A DNA stretch of 64,000 nt from Pseudomonas sp. ACM7 (GTDB taxonomy: Bacteria; Pseudomonadota; Gammaproteobacteria; Pseudomonadales; Pseudomonadaceae): the NCBI RefSeq assembly GCF_004136015.1, contig NZ_CP024866.1, forward strand, positions 3,087,522 through 3,151,521. The letters are read 5' to 3'. Every line of letters starts with the position of its first letter. Position 1 is the stretch's first letter. The notes beneath the pieces are model-generated. The model was not told the origin of the DNA, ran no database searches, and was given only the letters and a program-made list of their open reading frames with translations. Positions 7,266 to 54,855 of the stretch are shown one piece after another. The translations under genes and the position numbers were made by a program.

Positions 7266-7370
7266 GCCTCTTCGCGAGCAAGCCCGCTCCCACAGTTGAT
7301 CGTCGGTGAACACAAAATATGTGTACGACTGGGACCCCTGTGGGAGCGGGCTTGCCCGCGAAGGCGGCCT
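7266..7370. repeat. REPIN, family A (long spacer, subclass 3)
   Basis: Two inverted copies of a REP palindrome with core GTGGGAGCGGGCTTGC face each other across about 42 bases. The right arm reads GCTTGCCCGCG, a one-base variant. The spacer resembles those at 33.7, 34.9 and 58.2 kb (a GTGAACAC half and a GTACGAC half). Confidence 0.9.
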
Positions 7371-7393: not shown

Positions 7394-7768
7394 CTAAGCG
7401 CTGGCCTGAGCCTTCATCTGCGCCGTCTCATGATGATCCAGCGCCCGCTCCACCAACAACTGCACCCCATCCGCCATGCGGCTGAGCGCCAAGGCTACAG
7501 AACGGCGAGAGCCTTCCACATCGTCCGCCAGATCGGCCGCAATGGCGCTGATGGACAGCAGGTCTTCGGAGGCATTGGCCAGAAGGGCTTCGGTGTCGAT
7601 ATCGGGGGAGACGCTGAAGAGGTGATGTTTGCGGCGCTTGCGCGGTTTTTCATGGGGTGGGAAGTAGTAGGAAAAGACGCGGTCGGCGGCTTCCTTGAGT
7701 TTTTCGGCTTCGAGGGTTGCTTGGGAATCGGTGTCGGATTCCGGCGGATTGGGAGTTGGTTTGAACAT
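7394..7768 (-). CDS. DUF6124-type small protein, function unknown
   Basis: A 124-residue protein beginning MFKPTPNPPE, the opening I associate with the Pseudomonas DUF6124 family. The N-terminal third is proline- and charge-rich with a KPRKRRKHH basic patch (about residues 41-49). The C-terminal half (about 60-120) looks like an amphipathic helix pair rich in Ala, Asp and Leu. There is no signal peptide, membrane segment or catalytic motif. An AGGA ribosome-binding site lies eight bases before the ATG. The transcript would carry the structured leader at 7790-7906, which is shared with the DUF3077-type gene at 53.2-53.5 kb. The cell role is unknown. The leader, small size and acidic C terminus suggest a regulated accessory protein, which is inference only. 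Confidence 0.8.
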   Translation of the reverse strand: MFKPTPNPPESDTDSQATLEAEKLKEAADRVFSYYFPPHEKPRKRRKHHLFSVSPDIDTEALLANASEDLLSISAIAADLADDVEGSRRSVALALSRMADGVQLLVERALDHHETAQMKAQASA

Positions 7769-7789
7769 GGCAGAGATCCTTGTAGTGAT

Positions 7790-7906
7790 GGAGCTGCCAT
7801 TTTTCGTTTTCCAGACGAAAAGGGTGGCAGCTGTACGCGGACTGGAAAAACCGAGAAAGGATCAAACCCGGCAGACCCGAAGGTCTCCCACGCACAGCCG
7901 CCATAA
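7790..7906 (-). promoter_or_regulatory. Structured 5' leader, copy 1 (candidate cis-regulatory RNA)
   Basis: Read on the minus strand, the leader begins TTATGGCGGCTGTGCGTGG. It forms an internal AGACC-UUCG-GGUCU hairpin, and GCUGUGCG then pairs with downstream CGUACAGC. A second small hairpin and a GGCAGCTCC box precede the ribosome-binding site of the DUF6124-type gene. The same order and sequence recur upstream of the gene at 53166-53459. In the long stem a C-G pair here is U-A there, and the tetraloop is UUCG here and UCCG there. An 84-codon reading frame (7904 to 7650, start MAAVRGRPSG) runs through the leader into the gene in another frame and could be a leader peptide. Confidence 0.6.
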
Positions 7907-8132
7907 CTTAGAACTACGGAGCAAAAAAAGCGCCGCATTATGTCATGTGCATTGATCCTGTTCTTCGGGTTTTCCAGACCCGATCGCTGAATTGGCAGCG
8001 ACCCCCAAACGATAAAGATCAACGCAAAACCGCACCAGTCGGCGGGTTCCGGCATTGCTGTAGGCAGCGACGCCAGACTGCGTAGCCTCTCACCGCTCCT
8101 GCGGACAAACTTTTAAACACAAAACCCCAGTC

Positions 8133-31372: not shown

Positions 31373-33087
<1,715 letters not shown>

Positions 33088-33874: not shown

Positions 33875-34762
33875 ATGGACGCGCAAAAAGACGGCAAGAC
33901 CCCGAACCTCTCGCCTGAAGAACAGCACGACGTCGACAAGAGCCAGCCACCGCGGGCGGCGGTGTTGCACGAAATCATCCGCACCCAGGGCGATCAGGAA
34001 CTCGAACGCAGCGTCGCCGCCTTGTGGTGGTCGGCGCTGGCCGCCGGCCTGACCATGGGCCTGTCGCTGATGGCCATGGGGCTGCTCAATTCCCGTCTGC
34101 CGGACGGCGAAGGCTTCAAGGTGATTGCCAGTTTCGGTTACTGCGCAGGCTTTCTCGCGGTGATCCTCGCCCGTCAGCAGTTGTTCACCGAAAACACCCT
34201 GACGGCGGTGCTGCCGATCATGACCAAGCCCACACTGAACAATTTCGGTCGATTGCTACGCCTGTGGTCGGTGGTGCTGGTGGGCAACCTCTGCGGCACG
34301 TTGCTGGTGGCGTATGTGATGCTGAATCTGCCGATTTTCGACAGCAAGACCGACCTGGCCTTCCTTGATATCGGGCGCAAGATCATGGAGAACGACGCCA
34401 GCCAGATGTTTGCCAAAGGCATTGTGTCGGGCTGGATGATCGCCACCATGGTCTGGATGATTCCGTCCATGGAGAGCGCGAAGATGTGGATCATCATCCT
34501 CATCACCTACCTAATGGCGCTGGGGGATTTCACCCACATCGTGGTCGGTTCGGCCGAGGTCTCGTATCTGGTGTTTGCCGGCGAGTTGCCGTGGAAGGAT
34601 TTCTGGCTGGTGTTCGCCGGGCCGACGCTGGCGGGGAACATCATCGGCGGCAGCTTCATCTTCGCGCTGATCAGCCATGCGCAGATTCGCAGCGAGAGCG
34701 GGCCGCCGAAGAAGTCTACGGATCAAGGCCCGGAGCCCGACCCGCAGAAGACCACAAAGTAA
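33875..34762 (+). CDS. Formate/nitrite transporter family protein (YfdC-like)
   Basis: A 295-residue membrane protein. A charged N terminus (about 1-45) precedes six hydrophobic segments. The FNT-like central part includes RQQLFTENTLTAVLPIM (about 111-127), LVGNLCGTLLVAYVML and FTHIVVGSAEVSYLVFAGE (about 225-243), and the C terminus is hydrophilic. This is closest to the YfdC branch of the FNT superfamily, whose substrate is not established, so formate or nitrite transport should not be assumed. The ATG at 33875 has CCGGAG upstream; an ATG nine codons earlier is less likely. The 258-base gap after it holds a REPIN and a short coding-like stretch (34763-34850, minus) discussed in the findings. 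Confidence 0.88.
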   Translation: MDAQKDGKTPNLSPEEQHDVDKSQPPRAAVLHEIIRTQGDQELERSVAALWWSALAAGLTMGLSLMAMGLLNSRLPDGEGFKVIASFGYCAGFLAVILARQQLFTENTLTAVLPIMTKPTLNNFGRLLRLWSVVLVGNLCGTLLVAYVMLNLPIFDSKTDLAFLDIGRKIMENDASQMFAKGIVSGWMIATMVWMIPSMESAKMWIIILITYLMALGDFTHIVVGSAEVSYLVFAGELPWKDFWLVFAGPTLAGNIIGGSFIFALISHAQIRSESGPPKKSTDQGPEPDPQKTTK

Positions 34763-52966: not shown

Positions 52967-53150
52967 GGGGCGAATTTATTTATGTATCTTGTTTTGTTTT
53001 TTGTGTTTCGTAGATGAGATTAGTTTGAGTGGTAAGCACAGTCACCTGTAAAATATGACAGTTTTTTATATCTTTTAGCTATAGGTGAAAAAGGAAAGTT
53101 GACTAAAGAAAAGGACAAGAAAAGGGGGCTGGTTTATTTAATCGTCCCCT
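52967..53150. repeat. Duplicated AT-rich block, copy 2 (with motif copy 2 at 53041-53084)
   Basis: Counterpart of 51463-51668. It lies directly upstream of the unrecognised 163-residue protein, so it probably contains that gene's promoter. It ends in TTTATTTAATCGTCCCCT 13 bases from the DUF3077-type gene stop, without a transposase gene next to it. Confidence 0.7.
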
Positions 53151-53165
53151 TTTCCCTTAAACGGC

Positions 53166-53459
53166 TCAGCGATTTATTGGCTCATCAAACCCACGTTGCT
53201 CAATCACCCGAAACACATCGCTCACATCCTGAACCATGATCCGGGCGATGTTGGTGACGGTGTTGATGTCGTTCTCGGCATAGTCGGGGAGGCTGGTGCA
53301 GGCCATGAGGTTCAGATATTTGAGGACGGCGTTGAGGCGTTCGCTGACGCAGTTGTGGAGTTCGCGTAGCGGGGCGTCGCTGTCGATGAGGAGGACGGGG
53401 TAGTCGGTGGCGAATTGGGACATGGGGGTGAAGCGGCGGGGCGGATTATTCATTTTCAT
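53166..53459 (-). CDS. DUF3077-type small protein, function unknown
   Basis: A 97-residue protein starting MKMNNPPRRFTPMSQF. The body looks like a helical pair containing DAPLRELHNCVSERLNAVLKYL and ENDINTVTNIARIMVQDVSD, consistent with the Pseudomonas DUF3077 family. No signal peptide or catalytic motif. The start at 53459 follows GAGGAAG by eight bases; the frame is open further upstream but that region is the structured leader. A 47-codon upstream frame (53599 to 53456) ends in an ATGA overlap with this start, so translation may be coupled. The gene shares its leader type with the DUF6124-type gene at 7.4 kb. Confidence 0.78.
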   Translation of the reverse strand: MKMNNPPRRFTPMSQFATDYPVLLIDSDAPLRELHNCVSERLNAVLKYLNLMACTSLPDYAENDINTVTNIARIMVQDVSDVFRVIEQRGFDEPINR

Positions 53460-53599
53460 AAGTAAATCTTCCTCGAATCTAAAAGAAGAGCTACTGCCGT
53501 TCGCTGCGAAGCGAATTGGGTGGTAGCTGTGTGCGGGTTCGCAGACCAGGGATACGAGGAACCCGGCAGACCCGGAGGTCTCCCACACACAGCCACCAT
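53456..53599 (-). CDS. Possible 47-residue leader ORF overlapping the DUF3077-type gene
   Basis: The frame begins ATG at 53599 (MVAVCGRPPGLPG) and stops at a TGA that overlaps the downstream ATG by four bases. The first 13 residues resemble those from the leader at 7904 (MAAVRGRPSGLPG). There is no good ribosome-binding site except CCTCCTTTTT-type sequence nearby. The similarity follows from the conserved RNA structure, so it may not be translated. Confidence 0.2.
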   Translation of the reverse strand: MVAVCGRPPGLPGSSYPWSANPHTATTQFASQRTAVALLLDSRKIYL

Positions 53600-53601
53600 A
53601 A
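53488..53601 (-). promoter_or_regulatory. Structured 5' leader, copy 2 (candidate cis-regulatory RNA)
   Basis: Minus strand: starts TTATGGTGGCTGTGTGTGGG, forms AGACC-UCCG-GGUCU, then GCUGUGUG pairs with CACACAGC and GGUGG with CCACC, and finally a TTCGCTTCGCAGCGAA hairpin precedes GGCAGTAGCTC. The order and most bases match 7906-7790. The paired positions that differ keep pairing (C-G to U-A; G-U to G-C). Confidence 0.62.
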
Positions 53602-53937
53602 AAAGGAGGACGGGTGCTGATGCGCCCGTGATTTTCGAGGCGCTAGGTTACTACACGTATCGTTAGGGCTGCGAAACCCTATCGCCAACGATGTCAGCGA
53701 CAGGCTAACTTTAGGCAGCGATTCGGGTAGCCGCAACCGGGCTGTAGGACGCCTTTCCGGTCATTTGGCGAGACGGTTTGGTCTCATTCGGTGGCGTAGC
53801 GGCAATAGAACCGTCCGATGTGATGTGTCTGAGGAAATTGGGGGGGAGGGTTTGGCGCTGCTTCGCAGCCCAGCGGGAGCAAGCTCCCTCGCCACGGTCG
53901 GAGGAGTCCTACGAGTTTTGCGGACGCCAGGTTTTTG

Positions 53938-54094
53938 TAGCAGCTGTCGAGCCTGCGAGGCTGCGTTCGGCTCGGGCCGCGTTCGGACGGAGCAGTCGTA
54001 AATCAGACAACGCATTTATTCAGGTAGACCGGGTTCCTCGGGCTTGCGAGGACTTCGTCCTCGGACGCAGCCTCGCAGGCTCGGCAGCTGCTAC
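53938..54094. repeat. Inverted pair of a third REP-like sequence
   Basis: TAGCAGCTGTCGAGCCTGCG at 53938 and the matching CGCAGGCTCGGCAGCTGCTA at 54075 face each other across about 100 bases. The gap 53602-54186 has no convincing gene; it also holds a nested hairpin (ATCGTTAGGG / CCCT...AACGAT, 53659-53692) and a GCGGGAGCAAGCTCCCTCGC palindrome (53871-53890). Confidence 0.7.
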
Positions 54095-54186
54095 AGAGAT
54101 CGAGTTGTTCTTGGGAGGGTTGGGGCGCGGAGCGTCCCGGGCGGCATTCCATTGCTGCGCGTGGGAACGATCAGGGTGAGGGGGGA

Positions 54187-54855
54187 TTACTTATCGTGAT
54201 CAATATCCAGATTGCTGAACGTCACTTGCCCGCCTTCGCTGGTGTACCCGGTGTTGTCCTGCACATAAACCCCGGCCTTGAAGTACAGCGGCTTGACGCT
54301 CCAGGTCTTGCTGATTTCGGTGTCCCACTGGTAGCCCGCCGCACTGATGCCCAGCGCGCCGCGCGGGCTCAGGTGGATGAGGTAGGAAAACTCCCGATCC
54401 AGTTTCACCCCGGTAGCAATGGTGATTATCCGTGCGCTATCGTCATCAGGGTGCATACGAACCTTGGCGACGATGTTGCCTGACTGCGTAGTGGTGCTGT
54501 ACTGATACTCGAGCTTCACCATGGGCTTCTGGCTTTCATAGGCGTGGATCTGGCCAATAACGATCTTCCCCGAACTCGGTACCTGATTCACCGCCATGGT
54601 GGCGCGCAGGGTATTGTCGGCGTCCGGGTAGCGCCAGTTTTTCAGGGTGCCATTGCTGTAGGTTTCGCGAAGTTCAGTGCGGGGGTACTTTGCGTTTTCA
54701 GTTTTGGAACCGGTGACCGGGGCCCAGAAAAACAAGGTGCCGGTGTCGGAGTGGAAGTATTGGTCCTTGAAGCCATCCACCAGTTTTGACGTTTCAACGG
54801 TGTACGGCGGATTGCCGACAGGAACACTGAGGTTCCAGGTTGCGAGATCAATCAT
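54187..54855 (-). CDS. Polysaccharide lyase family 7 (alginate lyase)
   Basis: A 222-residue single-domain PL7 protein with the three family signature regions: YPRTELRE (RxELR-type, about residues 58-65), QIHAY (about 101-105) and YFKAGVYVQ (about 197-205), containing the catalytic Arg, Gln, His and Tyr. It should cleave alginate by beta-elimination. There is no signal peptide: the chosen start MIDLATWNLSVPVG at 54855 has a GGAAGC site and leads straight into the domain; the longer open frame upstream has no leader either. Similar short PL7 proteins occur in many Pseudomonas. It is divergent from the GGDEF/EAL regulator. No alginate biosynthesis genes are adjacent. Confidence 0.9.
   Translation of the reverse strand: MIDLATWNLSVPVGNPPYTVETSKLVDGFKDQYFHSDTGTLFFWAPVTGSKTENAKYPRTELRETYSNGTLKNWRYPDADNTLRATMAVNQVPSSGKIVIGQIHAYESQKPMVKLEYQYSTTTQSGNIVAKVRMHPDDDSARIITIATGVKLDREFSYLIHLSPRGALGISAAGYQWDTEISKTWSVKPLYFKAGVYVQDNTGYTSEGGQVTFSNLDIDHDK

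Follow-up and report, generated by a model that had tools for sequence, protein, structure and literature searches.

Chromosomal C4 antisense RNA modules of the phage P1 type before small Pseudomonas genes: a probable set of self-addressed translational switches

Introduction

The closest described system to the loci treated here is the c4-icd-ant operon of phage P1 (RF01695). In the annotation of the P1 record its parts are a1 (7 nt), b1 (8 nt), the C4 RNA (77 nt), a2 (7 nt), b2 (8 nt), icd and ant1. According to the accessible sections of the literature, C4 provides phage immunity in P1 and P7 (PMC5320573, PMC12197685), a P1-type RNase P processing site is known, and Acinetobacter baumannii has 21 Group 1 C4-like sRNAs with a variable a' segment, processing at GGW and RNase P-type 5' ends in RNA-seq (PMC5320573). 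The A. baumannii set is a precedent for many C4 copies in one genome, although the accessible sections of that paper propose no downstream target belonging to each RNA, whereas the copies described here tend to match targets on their own transcript.

A second relative is the IsrK/orf45/anrP locus of the prophage Gifsy-1 (RF01394), in which, by the C4 model applied here, an a1/b1-type leader, a C4 and an antirepressor-like gene likewise follow one another. Its authors describe isrK together with a 45-aa ORF and liken them, in the sections available, to CI/SeqA of P4 (PMC4825925). The CI RNA of the P4 satellite, with seqA/seqC, is there likewise presented as a processed antisense RNA with upstream and downstream targets on its own transcript (PMC4825925), but unlike C4 it works by transcription termination. 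In its accessible text, PMC4825925 contains none of the terms "C4 antisense", "C4 RNA", "c4 repressor", "bacteriophage P1", "RNase P" and "Rfam". A 2025 review treats the P1 and IsrK literatures separately in the sections seen (PMC12197685), and a 2025 paper on Xylella places C4 and isrK side by side in a table. No description of self-addressed, multi-copy C4 modules in Pseudomonas was found in the accessible sections of the literature searched.

Results

The window, that is the whole 64,000-nt stretch of the Pseudomonas sp. ACM7 chromosome that was analysed, contains two small genes on the minus strand, at 53166-53459 (locus L010) and 7394-7768 (locus L021), which share a structured leader. 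All elements that a first-pass annotation had described in this leader were recovered on that strand, namely a TGGYGGCTGTG strand, an AGACC-UNCG-GGUCU hairpin, the partner strand, a small variable hairpin and a GGCAG..GCTC box, and both tetraloops are indeed of the UNCG type (UCCG and UUCG). They had been assigned to no named class; however, both leaders match the Rfam C4 antisense RNA (RF01695) in cmscan with 80.1 bits (L010) and 71.1 bits (L021) at a gathering cut-off of 45, accompanied by matches to RF03163 of which the one at L021 exceeds its cut-off, and the E values of 4.3e-14 and 7.4e-12 for 64 kb are far beyond chance. The strands and hairpins seen earlier correspond to stems P1 and P2 of C4, the a2 hairpin and the box before the Shine-Dalgarno region. 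The leader had been placed at 53456-53601, but the unit is larger and begins with an a1/b1 element at 53661-53714. Both window leaders are C4 antisense RNAs in the P1 arrangement of a1/b1, C4, a2/b2 over the ribosome-binding site and gene, the full transcript order being a1, b1, C4, a2, box, b2 over the Shine-Dalgarno region and ORF. Fold, order of parts, segment sizes and the position of b2 before the start codon are those of P1.

At L010, where all features lie on the minus strand, a possible sigma-70-like promoter was read by eye at 53708-53736 (TTGCGG at 53731-53736, a 17-nt spacer and TAAAGT at 53708-53713); a consensus promoter scanner made no call there or for the other module elements. 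The a1/b1 element (RF03163, 53661-53714) scores 31.4 bits, below the gathering cut-off of 46.7, and is also marked by complementarity, with a1 TTCGCAG at 53669-53675 and b1 GATACG at 53656-53661. It is followed by the C4 RNA at 53516-53603, which is backed by P1 covariation as well as by its score and carries a' (CTGCGAA, 53538-53544) and, in the P3 loop, b' (TTCCTCG, 53555-53561). The a2 target TTCGCAG (53504-53510), the exact complement of a', lies within the "small variable hairpin", the box GGCAGTAGCTC (53488-53498) is able to pair with the C4 3' strand as a competing hairpin, and the b2 target CGAGGAA (53469-53475), the exact complement of b', overlaps the Shine-Dalgarno region. The ORF at 53166-53459 encodes 97 aa.

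L021, also on the minus strand, repeats this layout with other letters. Its a1/b1 element (RF03163, 7962-8015) reaches 51.9 bits and thereby passes the cut-off of 46.7 that the L010 element does not; a1 is CTGGAAAA at 7970-7977 and b1 is AGGATCAA at 7952-7959. Between this element and C4 lies a terminator-like GCGGCG..T7 stretch (7923-7936), which a consensus terminator scanner did not call, nor did it call any other module element. The C4 RNA (7820-7908) contains a' TTTTCCAG at 7842-7849 and b' GATCCTT at 7857-7863, and is followed by the a2 target CTGGAAAA at 7807-7814 (exact complement of a'), the box TGGCAGCTCC at 7790-7799 (complement of the C4 3' strand), the b2 target AAGGATC at 7775-7781 (exact complement of b', overlapping the Shine-Dalgarno region) and an ORF of 124 aa at 7394-7768. 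By eye, the C4 core starts with GGT in L010 and GGC in L021. The isrK model (RF01394, cut-off 50) scores 31.6 bits at 7923-8002 in L021, below its cut-off, and has no match in 53000-54200 around L010, while two phage records, L147 (51.3 bits) and L149 (50.8 bits), pass it.

Two further features of the window were recorded. A repeated sequence of the GCGAGCAAGCCCGCTCCCACA type, REP-like by eye, occurs as two inverted copies just past the DUF6124 gene at 7269-7365, and a SAH riboswitch aptamer (RF01057, 65.8 bits) is found at 32806-32908 on the minus strand.

Read by eye, the long stems of the two leaders, previously noted to differ by one C-G to U-A exchange and one G-U to G-C change, differ at more positions: C-G stands against U-A, changed on both strands, at two pairs (positions 4 and 12), and G-C against G-U, changed on one strand, at two others (11 and 17). 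Over 59 Pseudomonas C4s (30 from this genome and 29 from other genomes) 981 of 1003 P1 cells are paired, and 14 of the 17 P1 positions show at least two Watson-Crick types. Sliding the partner strand lowers pairing at positions 4-14 from 0.97 to 0.14-0.52. Dealing 3' strands to other loci had a smaller effect (mean pairing 0.906, highest value in 2000 shuffles 0.949), since the copies have similar stems. Nor are the modules randomly placed relative to genes, since a start codon follows C4 by 45-58 nt in all 30 loci of this genome, with the qualification that the frame is broken in L001 and that the codon opens a short first ORF in L003 and L009. The earlier view of a functional, covarying RNA before small Pseudomonas proteins holds as far as a functional-looking RNA is concerned; a plain cis element is not supported.

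Only two such leaders had been recognized, but the chromosome contains 30 RF01695 matches, 29 of them over the cut-off, and 28 RF03163 (a1/b1) matches at E <= 0.01, seven of which exceed the gathering cut-off. Unlike in P1, the modules are here chromosomal, number about 30, with 24 a2 strings between them, and mostly precede genes without a known antirepressor domain. Within the genus, C4 was matched in 54 of 59 genomes (this one included), over the cut-off in 53, and was not found in five; the median is 17 copies per genome, the maximum at least 54 and the sum at least 1007, and 26 genomes hold 20 or more. With at most 61 candidates scored per genome in the genus and at most 15 in the class, the high counts are lower bounds. 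Across the class, 18 of 274 genomes (again including this one) contain C4, the other 17 with 1-6 copies each, and 14 control genomes gave zero matches. In four close paralogue pairs of this genome (L001/L019, L010/L017, L014/L028 and L004/L008) similarity begins some 150-250 nt before C4 and extends roughly to the ORF end; other pairs have less in common. As a separate observation, 297 identical bases lie beside two C4 modules (L014, 1043-1339, and L029, 2361-2657, oriented), and they contain a reading frame resembling the end of an IS66-type transposase. In another genome (G319, with loci L097, L106 and L111), four of six C4 matches lie inside 1.4 kb of one contig, near VapE- and DUF927-type genes.

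The eight neighbouring genes scanned around the two window modules, out of 30 loci in this genome, include six with a Pfam family (CheA- and CheW-type, CitG, FBP aldolase, alginate lyase and GGDEF-EAL) and no phage gene. Based on these ordinary chromosomal neighbours, the two window modules apparently lie outside any prophage.

The pairing segments, compared by their longest exact complementary run, fit the targets of their own locus. In this genome, the mean run between a' and a2 is 6.93 nt at the own locus and 3.98 nt elsewhere, that between b' and b2 7.13 versus 4.14, that of a' with the upstream region 7.13 versus 4.78, and that of b' with the 35 nt after a1 7.07 versus 4.25; all four means lay above every one of 20000 shuffles. 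In the same order, the own target ranked first in 23, 21, 22 and 21 of 30 rows when ties were counted, and without a tie in 9, 14, 4 and 17. Both runs reach 6 nt or more in 25/30 self pairs as opposed to 9/870 non-self pairs. The tendency is also seen in the loci sampled elsewhere, 29 from other Pseudomonas and 26 from other genera, which are best-scoring rather than random samples. Across all 85 loci, the means were 7.00 nt own versus 4.10 other for a'-a2 (shuffle maximum 4.62), 7.85 versus 4.59 for b'-b2 (5.09), 7.19 versus 4.84 for a' with upstream (5.28) and 7.24 versus 5.06 for b' with upstream (5.49). The 30 loci of this genome have 24 different a2 strings, five of which are common to two or three loci. 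Ranking by duplex energy puts the own a2 first in just 4/30 rows, probably because GC-rich foreign targets bind too, and a and b combined put the own locus first in 14/30. L008 has no a2 match and the ORF of L001 is frameshifted, so some copies may be decayed. As the pairing segments vary from copy to copy and fit their own target, the set looks like many private switches with an antisense RNA as their conserved core, and not like the single regulon-wide cis element suggested before.

In predicted pairing, a 29-nt window placed on the upstream segment a1 outcompetes a2 for a' in 29/30 loci, and random windows do so in 114/600 cases. This is what one would expect of a decoy. Placed in a 120-nt stretch, a1 beats a2 in 30/30 loci, but random 120-nt stretches win in 173/300 cases, and the figure of 29/30 for a1 and b1 together, which comes from such stretches and has the same weakness, was set aside.

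The protein family of L010 allows the two codes to be followed between genomes. Among 80 named Pseudomonas loci, the best 80 of 126, a C4 hairpin with at least 15 of 17 stem pairs stands upstream in 66. In these 66, a2 is TTCGCAG in 63 and TCGCAG in three, while 38 different P3 loops occur. In 62 distinct loci the P3 loop matches its own Shine-Dalgarno region with a mean run of 7.77 nt, against 4.91 with others and a shuffle maximum of 5.63, and the own run is 6 nt or longer in 55. In this family the a-code is constant, and the b-code varies in step with its target. Fourteen of the 66 loci neighbour the alginate lyase gene that also adjoins the window locus; six different P3 loops occur among them, and 12 of the 14 have an own run of at least 6 nt. 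The L010 ORF is under purifying selection, with dN/dS of 0.10-0.51 in ten comparisons with family members.

Of the remaining 14 family loci, two are contig ends, and cmscan (E <= 0.001) found C4 in none of the other 12. The a1/b1 hit is kept in three of these 12, the a1 string in ten and a complete ORF in 11, so repression would be dispensable there. An a1 TTCGCAG and a complete ORF occur together in L271, L276, L277, L278, L295, L296, L303, L315, L337 and L344, and L303 apparently retains the 5' strand of C4. Service of such loci by a partner C4 of the same genome was considered and rejected, as the b run was 5-6 nt versus means of 5.4-5.8 for other C4s in six pairs; the a-code was common to both in 4/6 of the tested partner pairs.

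The guarded proteins themselves are diverse. The L021 gene had rightly been called DUF6124-type (PF19619, 92.6 bits, 1.4e-26, cut-off 27). The name DUF3077-type for the L010 gene did not stand, because its protein matches no Pfam family at the gathering score, DUF3077 (PF11275) included, and no NCBIfam, PADLOC or PHROG family either; a two-helix hairpin is predicted for it. By family-model search, C4 precedes 15/20 DUF6124 genes, 3/5 DUF3077 hits and 3/4 Bro-N genes of this genome, the five DUF6124 genes without a detected C4 all having an open frame. Nine other C4 loci, L010 included, fall outside these families, and the six of them that were scanned against Pfam gave no hit over the cut-off. 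In L003 and L009 the short first ORF is followed by a DUF3077 gene. An antirepressor domain was not found in either window gene with Pfam, and Bro-N accounts for 3/30 loci. Outside Pseudomonas, 20 proteins encoded by the first or second ORF after C4 were scanned from 18 of 26 loci, and nine have a family: AntA, pRha (2), Bro-N (2), P22_AR_N and the replication-type DUF927, VapE-like and Prim-Pol.

Among 50,697 phage records, a single unannotated contig encodes the L010 protein. The DUF6124 protein of L018 likewise turned up in one phage record, at the record edge beside prtR, and in none of 72,556 plasmid records. Ten phage records contain DNA that resembles the L021 module over at most 29% of its length, and a phage C4 stretch as query matched 26 records, 25 of them named Pseudomonas phages. 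Two AlphaFold models predict the same helical hairpin (pLDDT 78.7 and 76.5), and one protein of this genome is matched by both the DUF3077 and DUF6124 models. For a single superfamily of DUF3077, DUF6124 and L010, profile comparison gave a probability of 17% (E 0.0014), Foldseek no match at E <= 0.001, and a PDB sequence search nothing useful. DUF6124 is not mentioned in the literature searched, and DUF3077 hardly.

Two observations may be added. At L072 (about 1501-1912) a DUF6124 gene without C4, whose protein the DUF3077 model also matches, adjoins a PrrF RNA (156.3 bits). At L031-L033, L037, L040, L043, L044, L047, L050, L057 and L058, all from other Pseudomonas, the C4 is followed by a leader ORF of 52-57 aa and then a second small ORF, reminiscent of icd-ant.

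In Gifsy-1, covariance models find isrK at 34240-34316 (79.3 bits) and, immediately following it, a C4 at 34131-34214 (69 bits). With the first base of the isrK match as nt 1, C4 covers nt 103-186, an ORF from A107 has exactly 45 aa, and the published mutated letters C18, G28, G31, A107, G114, C159, C162, G173 and C175 all agree with the sequence; a1 is nt 26-32, and the first bases of the a' window and of a2 are nt 156 and nt 192. By these coordinates the published orf45 begins inside the C4 RNA, G28-C162 and G31-C159 are a1-a' pairs, and STnc1160, of about 80 nt, fits the processed C4. The isrK/orf45 locus (PMC4825925) contains a C4, and its re-reading as a C4 module is testable and would link the P1 and IsrK literatures. 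According to the accessible sections of the same paper, basal anrP translation went from 4 units to 484 and 926 when a' was mutated. Combining a1 and a' mutations brought it part of the way down again in two cases (224 and 327 units), an effect that the authors put down to a cis structure. IsrK in trans increased anrP translation 114-171-fold, and an RNA processed to about 80 nt was present. When STnc1160, here read as the C4, was expressed constitutively, the growth arrest by IsrK became more severe instead of milder (PMC4825925, same sections).

Discussion

We hold, with a probability of roughly 85%, that each leader is a chromosomal immunity module of the P1 C4 type that has become a domesticated and multiplied translational switch, most of the approximately 30 copies apparently being built to silence the adjacent small gene by a short address code of their own. 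By analogy with P1 and with the IsrK work, which amounts to an independent experiment on a homologous locus, one expressed transcript would carry a1/b1, C4, a2/b2 and the small ORF, and RNase P together with other nucleases would release a C4 RNA of about 77 nt. Its a' segment would bind a2 while the P3-loop segment b' would bind b2, occluding the Shine-Dalgarno site and keeping the ORF silent. Wherever transcripts end ahead of C4, the a1/b1 leader, which has the same two addresses, may serve as a decoy, sequestering C4 and thereby opening the switch. A T run of at least 5 within the 75 nt before C4 is present in only 8/30 loci of this genome, so the decoy route may not be general. It also counts against this model that single modules look decayed (no a2 match in L008, a frameshifted ORF in L001), that C4 was not detected at 5/20 DUF6124 genes of this genome and 12/80 loci of the L010 family, that the own target is uniquely the best match in a minority of rows for a'-a2 and b'-b2, and that constitutive STnc1160 and the a1/a' double mutants of Gifsy-1 did not behave as a simple repressor reading would have it.

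Alternatively, the leader could be a cis switch in which the C4 3' strand pairs either with its own 5' strand or with the downstream GGCAGC box, forming a hairpin around a2, and a signal chooses between the two. The pairing energy of box and 3' strand speaks for such a fold, as the observed value was reached by 185 (30 loci of this genome), 119 (29 of other Pseudomonas) and 0 (26 of other genera) of 10000 shuffles, and the same box complement is visible by eye in Gifsy-1. On the other hand, the exact-run test of the box in this genome was not significant (own 5.50, shuffle maximum 5.90), a conserved core of the ligand type was not seen, and the loops change along with their targets, a behaviour typical of antisense segments. 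A cis switch is unlikely on this evidence. The competing hairpin between the C4 3' strand and the box is moderately supported and is not needed for the antisense model. A riboswitch reading was rejected, having nothing in its favour beyond the box pairing.

Less probable still is that the chromosomal C4s act mainly in trans, as an immunity array against phages or satellites with the same address. C4-based immunity is known from P1 and P7, and the 10-kb record vB_Pae_U10, with integrase and primase genes, has an address of 7+9 nt in common with L014. With at least 6 nt for a and 8 nt for b, chromosomal C4s matched viral targets in 6/1830 pairs where 2.5 were expected; 300 shuffles gave up to 10. 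With both runs at 6 nt or more, however, 61 viral C4 modules matched the 30 chromosomal targets in 23/1830 pairs against 28.8 expected by shuffling, and the reverse direction gave 18/1830 against 21.8. The viral sample is confined to C4s of the Pseudomonas-like kind that contain either of two exact cores of 20-21 nt (112 stretches, 87 C4s parsed, 61 distinct, 48 of the 61 self-matching). As there is no clear excess of phage-matching addresses among these 61 distinct modules, the single match of U10 with L014 was set aside as support.

Type I toxin-antitoxin systems typically encode hydrophobic peptides. Cassettes of a similar kind, with a harmful small protein and C4 as the RNA antitoxin, would suit the many dispersed one-gene copies, the antisense RNA over the Shine-Dalgarno site and the annotation of the first P1 operon gene as a cell division inhibitor. 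Against them stand the loss of C4 before 12 of the best 80 L010-family genes, 11 with a complete ORF, the five C4-less DUF6124 genes with open frames, the absence of a PADLOC match among five proteins and the two models, which predict helical hairpins and not hydrophobic peptides. This explanation ranks below the immunity array and is improbable. Functionless dispersed repeats or decaying prophage remnants, which the origin of C4 in phages, one broken ORF and one decayed a2 could suggest, were already disfavoured and are very improbable given the fixed geometry, the compensatory changes, the purifying selection on the ORF, the absence of an identified phage gene from the eight window neighbours scanned and the recurrent alginate lyase gene in 14/66 family loci.

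C4 modules are known in kind, and what is unusual here is their scale, their addressing and their payload. For the genus, we tentatively suggest, at less than even odds, that a phage immunity RNA has been converted in Pseudomonas into some 20-50 largely orthogonal, self-addressed switches spread over the genome. In these, a would be the key of a family and b an individual key that drifts with its target, a1/b1 would be the decoy, and the guarded proteins, some of them perhaps mini-antirepressors, would link the chromosome to prophages and satellites. If this is true, a single cell would contain a natural set of dozens of mostly non-cross-reacting antisense regulators whose specificity code would be readable from sequence, and the modules would offer a first handle on DUF6124, DUF3077 and the unnamed small proteins of Pseudomonas.
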